From the NCBI GenBank assembly GCA_947632135.1, contig CANRNZ010000005.1:1-40141 (forward strand): 40,141 bases of DNA. Direction: 5' to 3'. Position 1 is the stretch's first letter. Each line of letters opens with the position of its first letter. This DNA comes from an uncultured Clostridia bacterium (GTDB taxonomy: Bacteria > Bacillota > Clostridia > Oscillospirales > CAG-272). Under the pieces are notes generated by a model. It searched no databases. It saw nothing but the letters and a program-made list of their open reading frames with translations, and had not been told where the DNA came from. This document shows positions 7,619 to 40,141 of this stretch, piece after piece. The translations under genes and the position numbers were made by a program.

Positions 7619-8740
7619 TTAAAGGATGAGCATTGCATCTCCAAAGGAGAAAAATCTGTAATTCATATCGACCGCGGTTTTGTACGCTCTCAGGATATCC
7701 TCTCTCGTATAAAAGGCCGAGACGAGCATAAGAAGCGTGCTTTCGGGAAGGTGGAAGTTTGTTATGAGAGCGTCCGTGATTTTGAATTTGTAGCCGGGAT
7801 AAATGAAAATACCGGTGTCGCCTTTAATCGGGCGGAGAATTCCGCTGTCGTCCGAGGCGCTCTCAAGAGTGCGGCAGGAGGTCGTGCCGACGGCGATTAC
7901 TCTGCCGCCGTTTTTTCGGCGGGTGTTTATTATTTCGGCGGCCTCCTTGCTCACCTCGATGTATTCGGAGTGCATCTCGTGGTCCGCTATGCGTTCCTCT
8001 TTTACGGGTCTGAATGTGCCGAGCCCGACATGCAAAAGCACGGGGACAACGGCGACTCCCATTGACTTTATTTTTTCAAGCAGCTCGTTTGTAAAGTGCA
8101 GTCCCGCGGTCGGCGCGGCGGAGGAACCCTCGGTTTTCGAGTATACAGTCTGGTATCTTTCGCTGTTTTCAAGCTTTTCGGTTATATACGGCGGCAGAGG
8201 GGTCGTTCCCATTTCGTGGAGCGCGGCGTACACGCTGTCGTGTCGGGCGGGGTCGGCGGTAAATTTTACCTTTCTTATCCCGCCGTCCGCAAGGACGTCG
8301 ACTACCCTTGCGGTAAGGCTGCCGTCGCCAAAGGAGAGAGTGTCGCCGCGGCGCGCTCTTTTCCCGGGGCCGGCAAGAGCCTCCCACGTGTCGTTTTCAA
8401 GCTGTTTTAAAAGGAGCAGCTCGACGGGGGAGGCGCTCTCCGTTTTCACGGAGACGCCGCCCTCAAAACGGTGGGAGCGCACGCCGATAATCCTCGCGGG
8501 AATGACTCTCGTGTCGTTTATAACGAGAACGTCGCCCGCCCTCAGATAGTCGGTAATGTTCGAAAAGATTCTGTGGGACACGTCGCCGCTTTTCCTGTCG
8601 ATTACCATAAGGCGCGACGAGTCCCGTTTTTCAAGCGGCGTCTGCGCTATTCTCTCCTTTGGGAGCTCATAGTAAAAGTCACTCAGCAGAAGCTCCGTTT
8701 TCGGGAGCTCGTTTTTTACGGTTTTCATCTGTTCTGTCAT
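7619..8740 (-). CDS. queA: S-adenosylmethionine:tRNA ribosyltransferase-isomerase
   Basis: [88 protein letters not shown]. Confidence 0.97.
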
Positions 8741-32638: not shown

Positions 32639-32724
32639 AATTCTGGTCTCCTTTCTGAAAATTTGCATAATAAAAGCACCTCCGGCGTAGAGGTGCTTTT
32701 ACAGCCGTATTTAGTTGGTTTCGG

Positions 32725-33873
32725 TCAGCCTGTTTCCGGCGCTGCTCTGTGCAGCCACGGAAATATAAACAGTTTATCGTATAGCCGTCCGATGCTTTGA
32801 ATGGTGCGCCAAGCGCTGAAATTGAGGGCATACGAGCGCCAGCTCTGCCAAGAGGTATAAATGTCCTCATAGGTCATTATTCCGGCCTCGTAAAGCGGAA
32901 CAAACTTTTTGAGCTTCCTCCGCTCCCGTGTTATGGACTGTTTGGGTATCTTTTTGAGTACCTTCCCGCTTTCCGTCAGGAAAATCCTCGCTTTCAGGAA
33001 TGTAAAGCCGTGTGAAATCTTTACGATATGCGTCTTTTTCTCGTTGAGGGATATTTCCAGCTCCGCGCAAATTTTACGGATTCCGTCGAGGCATTTCTGC
33101 AAATATTCCTTGCTCTCGTGGATTGCATAGCCGTCGTCCATGTACCGGCCATATCCGCGTATGCGGCAAACCTCCTTGATATAATGGTCTACCCGGTTTG
33201 GTACTGCAAGGGCAAAGGTCTGGCTAATCTGGCTGCCAAGCCCCAGCCCTATATCGCCAAACATATCTATGAAATGTTCGGTGATAGCGATTACCTTTTC
33301 GTCTGTAAATTCCCTGCGGAGTATTTCTTTGCAAATGCGGTGTGAAACGCTGTCGAAAAACTTTCGGAAATCGAATAGCAGGATATAGCCCTCGTTTCCA
33401 TGCTTCCGGTAGTGTTCTCTGAGGTGCTGGCATAGCCTCCTGATTGCAAAGTGATACCCTTTGTATTTCAGGGAGGCCGCGTTGTCATATATGAATGTTC
33501 GCCCAAGAGTGGGAACAAGCGCGTAATCGCAGAGGCATCTCTGCACCACTCGCTCATCAATAGTTACCGACTTGATATGCCGGAGCTTTCCTCGCTCGTG
33601 GATGTCAAATTCATAAAATCCACTTGACCGCCATTTGCCTTGCTGCAACCGTTCGTAGGTCTGCCGAACCAAGAGCGGTGCCTGCGTGATGTACTTTTGG
33701 ACGCTGGCTTTCCATGCTACGTTCCTCCGGCACATCTGGTATGAACGATAAAGATGCGCGTATGAAAACACTTCGTCGAATTTATCAAGACTTTCGCAGG
33801 CTTTGGCCTTTTTGGCCGCTCGCCTTGCTACGCGACGCTTGTAACGCGCCTCCTTCCGTTCCTCACTTGTCAT
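32725..33873 (-). CDS. DGR reverse transcriptase
   Basis: LLFDFRKFFDSVSH (motif A), GLGSQISQTFALAVPNRVDHYIKE (DGR-type xGxxxSQ block), GRYMDDGYAIH (YMDD catalytic motif); adjacent to TR and Avd. Confidence 0.96.
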   Translation of the reverse strand: MTSEERKEARYKRRVARRAAKKAKACESLDKFDEVFSYAHLYRSYQMCRRNVAWKASVQKYITQAPLLVRQTYERLQQGKWRSSGFYEFDIHERGKLRHIKSVTIDERVVQRCLCDYALVPTLGRTFIYDNAASLKYKGYHFAIRRLCQHLREHYRKHGNEGYILLFDFRKFFDSVSHRICKEILRREFTDEKVIAITEHFIDMFGDIGLGLGSQISQTFALAVPNRVDHYIKEVCRIRGYGRYMDDGYAIHESKEYLQKCLDGIRKICAELEISLNEKKTHIVKISHGFTFLKARIFLTESGKVLKKIPKQSITRERRKLKKFVPLYEAGIMTYEDIYTSWQSWRSYALNFSAWRTIQSIGRLYDKLFIFPWLHRAAPETG

Positions 33874-34107
33874 ATAGGCATTCCTTTCCTTGATGGAGCT
33901 TTACCCTCGTACCGCAGTCGGATGATTACAATAGCGGCATAAGGTCACCGGGCATGAAACGGTGCATCATCATCAAGCTCCGCCATGCAAGCAGCGTCCG
34001 CCCGGACCTATCAAGGGTATTATTTACGCTTGCGCGAGGGTCCCGCTCTCCTTCTCTCCCTCCACACTGATTTCGCCGCTTCCGGTTACTTTGTCTCGCA
34101 AGAGAGG
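33874..34107 (-). ncRNA. Spacer between TR and RT start, predicted 3' part of the DGR template RNA
   Basis: 234 nt without a convincing gene, in the position of the TR-RT spacer of characterised DGRs; RNA extent is inferred. Confidence 0.5.
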
Positions 34108-34229
34108 AGCCGAGCGCCACCGCCCCGGAGCTGTTAGCGTTGTTATTGTTGTTGGAGCCGTCGCTATTCACATTATTGAAATTGTTGTTGTTGTTAGCAG
34201 ACCGGAGCCACCACCACGAGGCGCTGGAC
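34108..34229 (-). repeat. DGR template repeat (TR)
   Basis: 122-bp near-copy of VR at 34855-34976; no gaps, 10 mismatches, all at coding-strand A (plus-strand T). Confidence 0.97.
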
Positions 34230-34670: not shown

Positions 34671-34751
34671 CACCGTCCTGTCCTATTTTTATATCATTCC
34701 ATTATAACACAAAATTGCGAAAAAAGAGCCGCGATTTTGAAAAAAATTTTC

Positions 34752-34771
34752 GTCGCCGCTTACGCGGCGAC
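34752..34771. other. Perfect 8-bp GC-rich hairpin with 4-nt loop downstream of VR
   Basis: GTCGCCGC ttac GCGGCGAC (GTAA loop on the minus strand). Confidence 0.75.
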
Positions 34772-34800
34772 AAGGATTTACGGTTTTGGCTTCTGCTGGG

Positions 34801-34832
34801 TTTATCTGGCCCCACAAAGGGGGCCAGATAAA
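34801..34832. other. Perfect 13-bp hairpin with 6-nt loop downstream of VR
   Basis: TTTATCTGGCCCC acaaag GGGGCCAGATAAA. Confidence 0.85.
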
Positions 34833-34843
34833 TCGCGCATAGA

Positions 34844-37800
34844 TTATAAACAGAAGCCGAGCGCCACCGCCCCGGAGCTGTTAGCGTTGTTATAGCCGTT
34901 GGAGCCGCCGCTATTCACACTACTGAAACGGGAGTTGTTGTTAGCAGACCGGAGCCACCACCACGAGGCGCTGGACGCGCCTGCTTTCTTCTTGACGCGA
35001 GACGCATTATCCGGGAATGCCTCGTGATATAATCCGCTGCTGCTGAACATCTCTGTGTAAGAAGGAATCCACACATCATCGGTCGTGGTCTGTGTTTCGG
35101 ACGACCCGGCTGTGTTGTAAGAAGGTTGCGTTTTTGTTACCTCCTTGATGGAATTGCGTACTTCGTCAGGAATGAGCGGCTTTATAGTATCTTTGAAATA
35201 CTGTCTCATTTCGCTCTTTTCCCAACCACCTATTGCGCCGGTTCCTTCGTCGTAATTTCCAGAAGAACCAGAACGAGAAGGATTCATCCTATGGCTTGTC
35301 GCAAGTAGCTGTTCAGAAAGCCATGTAATAGGTGCCTTTCCGCCTCCGTCTGCAAGGTCATCGGTATCAAATGCAATAATTTGCATTGCCACAATTCCCT
35401 CTACGCCGAGGTCAATTTTCTTGGTATCACCAATGCTGTATTTGGTCTTGTAGCTGCCGTCTGCGCAAGCTGCAATAATCTCCTCCCAACTATCGGAAAT
35501 CGTTTCTTCAATTCCGATGAATTGGAACTGCGCATAACAGGATGTGTTTCCCTGAATGTTTGTGGGGGAGGGCTGCCATCCGCTGAATTTATAATCCTGC
35601 GGGTTATCCACGCCGGTCTTTACAGGCTCCGCCTCTGTGAACGTCGCTGAGCCACCCTGACGCACTCCAGTCACAGTCTGTAAGAGCTGATCGCCATTGT
35701 AAAAATAGACCGTGTATGTCGGGATGTACTGCGCGGTGTAAGTGGTGTTCCCGGTAACCGGTCCCACAGGCGGTGTCCAGCCGAGGAACGGGTCTCCGCT
35801 GCTGTTGGTCGGTGTCTGACCGTCATATTTCGGTGTCGTTCCATACGGAACATTCTGGTCGGTTTCAAGCGTAGTTCCGTCGCTGTTCTTCCAAGTTACC
35901 GTATAGGTCCTGACCGTCGCTGTGTAAGCCGCATAGACATCTCTGTCTGCCACGACTGCCTTGAGCGCATCCGCGTCCGCCTTGGTTGCGTTCTTGCTCT
36001 TGCTCCAACCGACGAACGAATAGGAATACTGCGCTGTGGAAGTCCTTGACGGCTGCTCTTTGTACTCTCCGCCGTCTCCACCGTCCTGTATCGTCTCCGT
36101 ATGGAGAAGCTGGCTTCCGTCATAGTTGTAATAGCGCAGATAGCTCGTAGTGTGGTCTGCGACGACGTTCACATACTGGTATCTCGCGTTGAACGAGGCA
36201 ATCTCCGCGCCAGTAAGAGCGCTTGTATGGATGGTGCCGGAAATCTGCGCTTTGTCCATATTCCCGCCGTACTCGTCAAGGCCGCGCATCTTATCCAGCA
36301 CATCAAAAAGCCCCTCGATTTCTTCCGCGTCCTCCGCTTCCCAACGGAAGTTTATAATACGAACACGGGAGCTTTCCGGGATTGCTTTCAGAATGGCCTT
36401 GCTGTCAACCGCAGCGCTTACATTGTCGAGCCATAACGTGGAAATATTCTCGTAGGACGGGATTTCCAGTTCCGTGATGGCCGTCTGGTTTCTGATGGTG
36501 AGGTTCGTCACCGTTTCCGGGAGGTGCAGTTTCTTGAGTATGCCGCCGTTCGGCAGGTCGATGCCGGTAATGCTGGTCCCGTCGAAATAGACTTCCTCGA
36601 TGTTCTTGCAACCGGAAATATCGACGGATTTCATATCGCCTTTTCCGAGGCTCTGGCAATTCCTCAAATCAAGGGTACGGAGCAGAACATTGTTGCCGAG
36701 GTAAAGCTCCTTCATATTGCCGTTGGTGTAGTCCGGGGAGCTGTCTCCGAGCTTAATGCTCTGTAATTTCGTACCCATGCTGAAATCAGCATATCCTACC
36801 TGCAAGCCGGAAAGGTCGCCCACAGACGCAAGCTGGCTCGCGGAATAGATGTAGATTTCCGTGTCGTTCACGTTGCTCAGGGGGCAGGTGAGAGTATAGC
36901 TCTGATTGCGTTGTGCGCGGGTCTGTTGCAGGTAAGAGCCGTACTTCACACTCGCGTAAACATCCGCATAGGGTGTTAACGTGATGTCAGCCTTTGCGTA
37001 GCCTCTGAGTTGAATAACATCGCTCTCCGCGTCTCCGGCGTTGTATTTGCTGTCAAGGTAACGGAAGCGGTTATAAAGCCACCATTTGCGCTGTTCTGCC
37101 TTGCTGCCTTGCAGCATCGCAAGATACGCTCCTGTTCCGCTTTCAATAAGAGGCTGCAAATACTTGAAATAAGCGTCCTCGTTGAAAATGGCTTCGCCCC
37201 ATTTTGCCTGATGCGTCTCGAACATCTCCGCAACCTTGTCATAGGAGAGCGCTCCGGTGCTTCGTAGCGTCTGGTACATGGCCTTAATGTCGTCATAAAA
37301 CGCCTGCCGGAGGTTTACCCACAATACGCTTTGCTGCCCGTTGAAAACATCGGCTCCTCCCTCGATGGTGTCAATGTCCTCAAGGTTGTACGAGAACACG
37401 AGAGCGCCCTCGTTATTGATACCAAGCGCGGTATCAAAGTCATAGGGGAGGGAGAACCATTTTGAGCCGCCAATGACGCTGGGGAATGAGTTCTTTGCTC
37501 GGCTGTCAACCATGAGGAACAGCTCTGTAAACAGGTAGTAGAAGATGACCGCGTCCTTCTCCAAATGGTCGGAAAATTCGTCCTTGAATTTTTGGAGCCG
37601 TGCTGCCTTTTCCTCCGGGCCGTCAACTGCGCTTTGGTCTGTCGATACAAGCCATTCCGCAAGCGCTTTCAGGTTCTCCGGGTTATCATTGTCCTCCGGG
37701 TAACGTGCCTCAAAGTCGCTTTTCCATTCGTCCGTGTCATAATCGGCGGATTTCCAGAGTACGCGGTCGCTTGTATTGTTCAGCGTCTCCCAGCTTTCAT

Positions 37801-40141
37801 CGCCCTCGGCAAATCCAAAGACTTCCGGCGTTCCTTTGTCGTTGTTGAAATTGTATTTTCCGAGGAATGTGGTGTTTTCCCCGTTATTCCAAAACACAAC
37901 GATGGGGAATCCGTCAATGCCCTGTCTGACGGCACTGTTGCTTTGCTGTGGCGCTGTTTTGTAAGGACAGCTATCGTTGTATAGGCGAGCCAATTCCACG
38001 TTGTTTGCGCCCTCTGAGGACGCAACATCCGCCTTGAAACAAAATTCTGCCGTAGGAATTGCACCGGGGCGAATAGGATAGCTTTCAACATGGCTACCGT
38101 TGTTCATGTCGAATCCGCCCTTGAATTTGATTTTGTAATTCTTCCGGGCGTAATACTGCGAGGAAGTACCTTGCACATCCGCCTGCGCTCCGGTCGCCGT
38201 GAAGCTCCGAGAGGTAGTTATCGGGTCAACATAGGTGATGCTGACGTCCTTTTTGTCTCCCTTGTACTGCGGAAGTTCCGGGCATTCGATAATCATGTAC
38301 GGCAGGTCGTTCGGGAGCCTTGCGATAACGATATTTCCGTATTCGTCATACACGTTGTTCCTCTGGTACCTTGCCAACATATCATCGACGAGCTGCGTGT
38401 CCGCAATCCAGTTGTTAAGTATCTGGCTGCGGTTCAGGTTGTTGTCATAAACCCTGATGCAGTACAGGTCAATCGTGCATTCGTTGGACCCGATGCTTAT
38501 TCCGACCGGCGTGGCCTGCGAGAAGTCGTCATTTGTCGGGTACTGTACCACGCCTGACATAATGCCGTTCACATAGATGTAAATGAGGCGGTTTTCGCTT
38601 CGCTTCTCAACGACGAACGAGATTCTGACGTGTTCCTCCTCTTTGTACTGCATGGAGATTTCAGACTGCTCCGACGCGAGCTTTGCAAGCTGCGCGGTGA
38701 GCGAAAAGCCTCTGCCGCCGTTCATGCAGGACATAATAACCGCGTCGTAGTCCATTACATCGCGGGTCGCAAATTCCAGCTCGATGGTCTTGCCGGTGCC
38801 ACGGAAATCTGACGCGAACGCTTGATAAGGAATTTCCACTCGCGCATCTCCGGCTACGCGGAGAACGGTGATTCCGTCGTCGTCGTTTACCCAGCCATCT
38901 GACTGATAGTTGAAGTTTTTGAACGTGGCCGAGATGTCCTCGTATTCCCATTTTCCGGGCGTTTCTTCGTTGTTGCTGCGTCCGGCGCTTGCAAGGTACA
39001 GTTTGAGCTGGTCCGTCTCCGCTTCCACATGGATGTCCGATTCTTTGATGTTGATTTCAATGGTTTTGGAGACCTCGCCGGAGGAAATAACGATACTGAG
39101 CGTCCCGGTGTCGTCTGCCCGGTATGTGAATACCTGCTGTGTCCTGTCTACCGTCAGTTTCGCTGCCTGTTCGCCGTTCACCGTGATAATTACATCCGCC
39201 GTCATGTGAAGCGGGTCATAAACAGTATAGTTGATGTGCAGCGTGGTGTACTGTGACGCCTCTTTTTGGTTGAAAGAGCTGACGATAATCGGCTCCGTAT
39301 TCAGCGGTTCAAGGCAGATAATCTCATAATAGAGATGGTTACTCTCAACCGTCTGGCCGTTAATATCGCAGCTAAAATAGGCCTCAAACGTGTGCGCCCC
39401 ATGCTTCTGCTGCGGGATTGTAAATGACATCTGCCTGCCGGAGACGGAGGTACTCGTAGTCCCGATTTCGCTGTTGTCGAGCAGGAAATGGAGCGTCTTG
39501 TTCACGCTGCCAACCGGCGTGTAGGGGAAGGAAATCGCGCCTGTATAAGGCGTAGAGGCATCGAAAGAGCTACTGAGGCTTATGGTGATGCTCGTAATGC
39601 TGAAATTGATGGTTCTGTTGTTGTCGTATACGTCCGAAATATTCACCTTTACGACGTTCGTTCCGGTCGTAATATAGGGAGCAAGGTTGATGGTAACTGT
39701 ACCTTGCTGAATATTCAGCATGGCCTTTACAATGCCGTTTACGGTGATTTTTGCGGTTCCGTCTCCGGTCGGCATATTGTCCTCAATGGACGACCAAAGG
39801 ATCTGTACCGGGCAGTCGTCCCCGTTGGCGATGGTGGTGGAAAGCCATCCGGTAACATTGCTGACCGAAAGCTCGGCATTATTGCCTCCGGTTCCGCCGC
39901 CTCCGCCTCCTGAACCGGCAAACGGTCCGTAAGGTCCGGCAATTCGCTCCCCGTTGTTCAGCAGGTAAACAAGGCCGTTTCCGTCCACTTCCAGCTCTTG
40001 AGCGTAGCTCGCGCCCTCCAATTCCAGCTTTTTGAGCTTGCTTTCAACATCGTCAACACGGTTGCTGAACTCTGCCGTTTCGTTTTCCGCGTTGGAGGCC
40101 TTTTCAAGGGCTTTTTTTGCCACCTCATCTGCGTCTGTCGT
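34844..40141 (-). CDS. DGR target: very large phage tail/adhesin protein (5' end beyond the window)
   Basis: Frame open to the window end; LamG-like, CotH-like (KNYKIKFKGGFD, GKYNFNNDKGTPEVFGF), LRR-like and InlB-type repeats, then a C-terminal WWWLRSA...SGAVALGFCL segment containing VR. Confidence 0.93.
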   Translation of the reverse strand, partial: TTDADEVAKKALEKASNAENETAEFSNRVDDVESKLKKLELEGASYAQELEVDGNGLVYLLNNGERIAGPYGPFAGSGGGGGGTGGNNAELSVSNVTGWLSTTIANGDDCPVQILWSSIEDNMPTGDGTAKITVNGIVKAMLNIQQGTVTINLAPYITTGTNVVKVNISDVYDNNRTINFSITSITISLSSSFDASTPYTGAISFPYTPVGSVNKTLHFLLDNSEIGTTSTSVSGRQMSFTIPQQKHGAHTFEAYFSCDINGQTVESNHLYYEIICLEPLNTEPIIVSSFNQKEASQYTTLHINYTVYDPLHMTADVIITVNGEQAAKLTVDRTQQVFTYRADDTGTLSIVISSGEVSKTIEINIKESDIHVEAETDQLKLYLASAGRSNNEETPGKWEYEDISATFKNFNYQSDGWVNDDDGITVLRVAGDARVEIPYQAFASDFRGTGKTIELEFATRDVMDYDAVIMSCMNGGRGFSLTAQLAKLASEQSEISMQYKEEEHVRISFVVEKRSENRLIYIYVNGIMSGVVQYPTNDDFSQATPVGISIGSNECTIDLYCIRVYDNNLNRSQILNNWIADTQLVDDMLARYQRNNVYDEYGNIVIARLPNDLPYMIIECPELPQYKGDKKDVSITYVDPITTSRSFTATGAQADVQGTSSQYYARKNYKIKFKGGFDMNNGSHVESYPIRPGAIPTAEFCFKADVASSEGANNVELARLYNDSCPYKTAPQQSNSAVRQGIDGFPIVVFWNNGENTTFLGKYNFNNDKGTPEVFGFAEGDESWETLNNTSDRVLWKSADYDTDEWKSDFEARYPEDNDNPENLKALAEWLVSTDQSAVDGPEEKAARLQKFKDEFSDHLEKDAVIFYYLFTELFLMVDSRAKNSFPSVIGGSKWFSLPYDFDTALGINNEGALVFSYNLEDIDTIEGGADVFNGQQSVLWVNLRQAFYDDIKAMYQTLRSTGALSYDKVAEMFETHQAKWGEAIFNEDAYFKYLQPLIESGTGAYLAMLQGSKAEQRKWWLYNRFRYLDSKYNAGDAESDVIQLRGYAKADITLTPYADVYASVKYGSYLQQTRAQRNQSYTLTCPLSNVNDTEIYIYSASQLASVGDLSGLQVGYADFSMGTKLQSIKLGDSSPDYTNGNMKELYLGNNVLLRTLDLRNCQSLGKGDMKSVDISGCKNIEEVYFDGTSITGIDLPNGGILKKLHLPETVTNLTIRNQTAITELEIPSYENISTLWLDNVSAAVDSKAILKAIPESSRVRIINFRWEAEDAEEIEGLFDVLDKMRGLDEYGGNMDKAQISGTIHTSALTGAEIASFNARYQYVNVVADHTTSYLRYYNYDGSQLLHTETIQDGGDGGEYKEQPSRTSTAQYSYSFVGWSKSKNATKADADALKAVVADRDVYAAYTATVRTYTVTWKNSDGTTLETDQNVPYGTTPKYDGQTPTNSSGDPFLGWTPPVGPVTGNTTYTAQYIPTYTVYFYNGDQLLQTVTGVRQGGSATFTEAEPVKTGVDNPQDYKFSGWQPSPTNIQGNTSCYAQFQFIGIEETISDSWEEIIAACADGSYKTKYSIGDTKKIDLGVEGIVAMQIIAFDTDDLADGGGKAPITWLSEQLLATSHRMNPSRSGSSGNYDEGTGAIGGWEKSEMRQYFKDTIKPLIPDEVRNSIKEVTKTQPSYNTAGSSETQTTTDDVWIPSYTEMFSSSGLYHEAFPDNASRVKKKAGASSASWWWLRSANNNSRFSSVNSGGSNGYNNANSSGAVALGFCL
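34855..34976 (-). repeat. DGR variable repeat (VR) at the 3' end of the target gene
   Basis: Encodes SASWWWLRSANNNSRFSSVNSGGSNGYNNANSSGAVALG; TR would encode SASWWWLRSANNNNNFNNVNSDGSNNNNNANSSGAVALG. Confidence 0.97.

Follow-up and report, generated by a model that had tools for sequence, protein, structure and literature searches.

The stretch of DNA analysed here (the window, 40,141 nucleotides) carries on its minus strand an intact-looking DGR, arranged in the order target gene, VR, hairpin, terminator, avd, TR, RT-2 RNA and RT:

34844..40123, minus strand: target gene, 1759 aa, GTG start as listed, C-terminus ...GFCL*; C-type-lectin-like C-terminus, Pfam DUF6273
34852..34976, minus strand: VR, 3' end of the target gene
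34842..34845, minus strand: first AATC copy, overlapping the stop codon at 34846-34844 (sequence; relatives show enrichment of the motif past VR)
34827..34830, minus strand: second ATC-type copy (TATC), within the 5' arm of the palindrome (sequence; motif count in relatives)
34801..34832, minus strand: palindrome, candidate homing hairpin/cruciform, 13-bp stem with coding-strand loop CTTTGT (sequence, fold, relatives)
34806..34827, minus strand: GC-rich 8-bp stem core CTGGCCCC/GGGGCCAG with the loop (sequence, comparison with relatives)
34750..34773, minus strand: terminator-like hairpin TTGTCGCCGC-GTAA-GCGGCGACGA, then AAATTTTTTT; counterparts in L001 and L002
34260..34673, minus strand: Avd accessory protein, 137 aa (phrog_3206 'Avd protein of DGR', E 9.5e-12)
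34105..34229, minus strand: TR (template repeat), from the TR/VR comparison
33882..34103, minus strand: RT-2 RNA, Rfam RF03077, directly 3' of TR, likely DGR spacer RNA (144.6 bits, E 3.3e-35)
32725..33873, minus strand: reverse transcriptase (RT), 382 aa (RVT_1, E 9e-15)

Of 125 positions, TR and VR disagree at 11, and 10 of these are TR adenines (P about 1e-5), the genes for RT and Avd are adjacent, and the target ends in a C-type-lectin-like domain; the C-lec fold is resembled by DUF6273-like domains (PMC10743442). Since an endolysin gene lies on the same strand, the DGR is of the prophage type, with a tail-type gene as its target; searched as DNA against the phage collection, the end of the target gave no matches. 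The RT-2 RNA, which is likely the DGR spacer RNA, also directly follows TR in 9 of the 10 relatives scanned and contains the conserved motifs AGACARAGTA and GAAATCAG. Just past the RT stop codon, a perfect 12-bp stem (TAAAAGCACCTC, loop of 7, 32671-32701) may terminate transcription of the DGR unit.

On the plus strand, the palindrome consists of the arm TTTATCTGGCCCC (34801-34813), the loop ACAAAG (34814-34819) and the arm GGGGCCAGATAAA (34820-34832), so that the coding (minus) strand reads TTTATCTGGCCCC-CTTTGT-GGGGCCAGATAAA, with all 13 bp paired around a loop of exactly 6 nt. The initial annotation had described a perfect 13-bp palindrome starting 11 bp beyond the target stop codon, and the sequence agrees on both points; the distance from VR, which it had put at 22 bp, is 19 nt with the VR end at 34852. 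No other perfect stem of at least 13 bp occurs in the 40 kb of the window when loops of 3 to 8 nt are allowed, and 60 dinucleotide shuffles of the window produced no stems of at least 12 bp and on average approximately 0.05 of at least 11 bp. The DNA fold of positions 34740-34870 has a z-score of -5.2, and the palindrome also folds strongly as RNA. In the DNA fold, GGCTTCTG (34850-34857, at the VR end) also pairs with CAGAAGCC (34788-34795), which would enclose the palindrome in a further stem of 8 bp; absent in L001, L002 and L083, this stem was rejected as unsupported.

Relatives were gathered by RT similarity alone, not by the presence of a hairpin, from genome contigs, from genomes of the family, order and class and further genomes, and from phage records, and their TR/VR pairs were located by script; the set includes a few near-duplicates (e.g., L062/L063 and L006/L007). 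To be counted, a hairpin needed a perfect stem of at least 6 bp with five or more G+C pairs, a 3-7 nt loop and a distance of no more than 75 nt from VR; on BPP-1, which served as positive control, the script recovered the published hairpin, GCGGGGCC-GAAA. A GC-rich hairpin follows VR in 38 of the 47 DGRs in which VR ends the target gene, compared to means of 1.3 in dinucleotide shuffles (maximum 5 in 200) and 1.7 at random places (maximum 6) for the same 47. The other 9 have no hairpin by this definition, some of them carrying imperfect ones (e.g., L057 and L030). Among 22 VRs that are internal to a gene or part of two-VR cassettes, with which two odd loci were grouped, only 1 has a hairpin. 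DGRs can thus exist without the hairpin, because some of the internal- or double-VR lineages have none. The hairpin-less loci with internal VRs (in tentaclin-like targets) or two VRs are L018, L019, L025, L052, L031-L033, L035, L039, L044, L048 and L069-L074, and display TATCTT-type repeats after VR, which may be mere coding sequence.

In the nearest relatives, the loop is kept while the stem has changed: TATCTGGCCCC-CTTGT in L083 (RT 67%), GTATCTGACCCC-CTTTGT in L002 (RT 66%), with a compensated G-C to A-T change relative to the window, and CCGCCCC-CTTTGT in L001 (RT 64%); the more distant L077 (RT 36%) has ATCTGTCCGG-CTTTGT. We aligned 16 loop-centred stems of the window's loop type, joining the arms without the loop. 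All ten stem pairs are changed on both sides; paired cells amount to 87.5%, compared to 56% in shuffled alignments and 41-51% with the partner slid, a percentage that is biased upward by the choice of stems for pairing, the unbiased test being the hairpin count in the 47 terminal-VR loci. Double-sided cells number 46, compared to 14.4 in the shuffles, none of 500 of which reaches the observed values. Pairing is conserved in the relatives and the stem sequence is free, which is the outcome of the comparison with related elements that the initial annotation had proposed.

The outer five pairs of the stem (TTTAT/ATAAA) are AT-rich and overlap the TATC copy. In the 40 nt following 48 terminal VRs, ATC occurs 101 times, compared to 31 expected, and GAT 11 times; 33 of the 48 VRs are followed by at least two ATC copies. 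Relatives repeat the AATC-type motif in the interval from VR to the hairpin, and although some copies overlap the stop codon, such overlap cannot account for the repeats. Because its outer pairs are AT-rich and lie over this recurring motif, the stem of the window consists of a GC-rich core of normal length (8 bp, CTGGCCCC) and a mirrored AT-rich flank over the conserved AATC-type motif. Accordingly, while the 13 bp do exceed the approximately 8 bp of the BPP-1 stem, as had been pointed out, the excess is mainly an AT-rich extension of a core that is itself 8 bp long. In BPP-1, 2 additional stem base pairs are tolerated and longer insertions lower the activity by degrees (PMC3240598). The AATC/ATCT repeats are strand-asymmetric and extend from the VR end to the hairpin (34827-34851 in the window; in relatives, the 40 nt that follow VR); BPP-1 has none between VR and its hairpin, and L079 has five AATC-type copies spaced approximately 8 nt apart without a perfect hairpin.

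Whereas the stem sequence is free, the loops fall into families, which were named after the loops had been inspected. Read on the sense strand, where the window has the CTTTGT hexaloop, the loops of the relatives are GNNA tetraloops (GAAA, GGAA, GACA, GATA, GTTA and others, a wider range than the published GRNA), YTTRT-type loops (CTTGT, CTCGT, CTTAT, TTTAT and CTTTGT) and a few others. Placed on a 70-row RT tree, the labels GNNA, YTTRT, none and other require 12 changes, compared to 36 when shuffled (0 of 200 shuffles reaching the observed value), and the window belongs to a supported RT clade of five, all with YTTRT loops. The loop family tracks the RT phylogeny.

Both its site just past the stop codon and its strong RNA fold would suit a palindrome that serves, independently of homing, as a transcription terminator or a stabiliser of the 3' end of the target mRNA. 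The minus strand carries no T-tract directly after the stem, as the initial annotation had remarked; CCCAGCAGAAGCC / CCCAGCAG stands there, and only 27 nt past the palindrome does a second hairpin with a run of seven T follow (34773-34750). A T-tract within 9 nt is found after only 1 of 39 hairpins, and the window, L001 and L002 have a separate terminator 3' of the hairpin. Since 38 of the 39 hairpins have no T-tract and the terminator of these three loci is separate, the palindrome is not a terminator, and the possibility that it only terminates transcription, raised earlier as a potential refutation, is answered. In other relatives, the hairpin lies shortly 5' of the avd start, without a tail; its loop family tracks the RT lineage, for which a terminator has no need; and G-U extensions of the stems are not in excess, a count made on hairpins for which perfect stems had been required. 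A role solely at the 3' end of the target transcript is therefore very unlikely. The second hairpin, GTCGCCGC-GTAA-GCGGCGAC, was also considered as the true homing hairpin and rejected: it lies approximately 80 nt past VR and carries the T-run, and the corresponding hairpins of L001 and L002 are terminators that lack a loop of 4 nt.

In many relatives the hairpin stands between the target stop codon and the avd ribosome-binding site, as would be expected if the palindrome acted as RNA, as a structured element of a target-avd transcript that modulates the translation of avd or the processing of the RNA. However, the hairpin is separated from avd by a terminator in the window and in both L001 and L002, and TATAAT-type sequences, TGTGTTATAAT in the window, follow the terminator and precede avd (terminator and TATAAT-type sequence together at 34690-34773 of the window, minus strand); in this subclade, the avd-TR-RT unit thus seems to have a transcript of its own, apart from that of the target. 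In addition, the loop is on the opposite strand in L084 (ACAAG, the reverse complement of CTTGT) and in L045 (TAAC, the reverse complement of GTTA), which a cruciform, having loops on both strands, would tolerate and an RNA loop would not; with two cases, this better fit to a cruciform is suggestive only. G-U pairs are rare in the stems, a weak argument since detection required perfect stems. Overall, we consider action as RNA unlikely. The loop could, in principle, dock by base pairing with the DGR RNA, as ACAAAG in the RT-2 RNA after TR is exactly complementary to CTTTGT, and both are present in the window and in L002. Yet AGACARAGTA is retained in the RNA regardless of the loop type, ACAAAG also occurs in L060 (loop CACT) and L067 (CTTAT), L001 has ACAGAG with a CTTTGT loop, and L067 and L073 share the same loop with different motifs, without covariation. 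With the motif conserved independently of the loop, such kissing was rejected and is, in our estimate, highly unlikely. A chance palindrome or a small mobile one (MITE/REP-like) has a negligible probability: nothing was found in its favour, the sequence occurs once in the 2.05-Mb genome in a search allowing up to 3 mismatches, and the hairpins at the same position in the relatives refute it.

We conclude that the palindrome is probably the target-site hairpin/cruciform of the DGR, with a loop of the YTTRT family of its lineage, aiding homing at VR. This reading is supported because hairpins recur after VR, their pairing covaries and T-tracts are almost absent; these observations, like its position and the conservation of the loop within the lineage, are direct, and they support the earlier proposal of a candidate homing cruciform. 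Its promotion of homing would follow by analogy with BPP-1, in which, as the initial annotation had stated, the hairpin 3' of VR is required for efficient homing, the stem acting by structure and the loop by sequence and size (PMC3240598). Where the DNA is supercoiled or transiently single-stranded, the arms of the palindrome would extrude just 3' of VR, at its IMH end, and would hold the target open and/or be recognised by the RT-Avd-RNA complex, whereupon mutagenised cDNA from TR would enter at VR. In E. coli, deletion of the hairpin severely impaired but did not abolish editing, the hairpin perhaps keeping the target open (PMC12875486). As in BPP-1, the stem would act by structure and the loop by sequence; in the RT lineage of the window, the YTTRT loop, here CTTTGT, would replace the GNNA/GRNA tetraloop and would presumably be read by the lineage's own RT/Avd.

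The hairpin of BPP-1 (Guo et al. 2011, PMC3240598) resembles that of the window in its site just past VR and the stop codon, in its GC-rich stem, conserved as structure and not as sequence, and in a short loop of conserved sequence. The 19-nt gap of the window falls within the 4-34 bp downstream of VR at which BPP-1-type inverted repeats lie, and the stem turnover matches theirs. The BPP-1 hairpin has 8 bp and a GAAA loop, and eight phage DGRs share a GRNA consensus with stems of 7-10 bp (PMC3240598), whereas the window has 13 bp in all, 8 of them in the GC-rich core, and in place of a 4-nt sense GRNA loop the 6-nt CTTTGT, of the lineage-wide YTTRT type. The initial annotation had taken stem length as the departure from BPP-1; the real departure is the loop, which it did not mention. 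Moreover, replacing GAAA with CTTT or lengthening the loop by 2 nt brings BPP-1 homing near background (PMC3240598), and hence the BPP-1 data do not imply that a CTTTGT hexaloop functions. A precedent for a lineage-specific loop is provided by nanoarchaeal DGRs (Paul et al. 2015, PMC4372165), although theirs is a three-nucleotide GRA loop inside the target gene, unrelated in sequence to YTTRT. Group IIC introns likewise are retroelements that use a DNA hairpin near the insertion point, but their targets are usually true terminators (PMC3240598), unlike in the window, where hairpin and terminator are distinct and no intron RNA is involved.

The hairpin as a DGR target element, GRNA loops and nanoarchaeal GRA loops were already known, whereas the YTTRT penta/hexaloop family and a loop type that follows the RT lineage appear to be new; we found no description of either in a search that covered few subscription papers, and the unpublished survey of Guo et al. 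could hold more. It is conceivable, and we propose it tentatively, that the hairpin loops form a code co-evolving with RT/Avd, in which YTTRT, as a family apart from GNNA/GRNA, has a reading machinery of its own and DGRs in the same cell would be orthogonal by loop. With a second loop family following the RT phylogeny, what reads the DGR target hairpin becomes directly testable. YTTRT loops also widen the signature for finding DGR targets, as searches for GRNA loops would miss them, and orthogonal DGR tools for directed protein evolution may follow.

Two further loci displayed particular arrangements. On one contig (L075; G337 contig 61), two DGR-type RTs lie 3 kb apart, and in the hairpin of the first DGR, a stem of 9 bp is followed by a 2-nt bulge and then 8 further pairs. 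Approximately 3 kb from the DGR of L084 lies a tmRNA gene (7711-8062), a possible integration site of that prophage.
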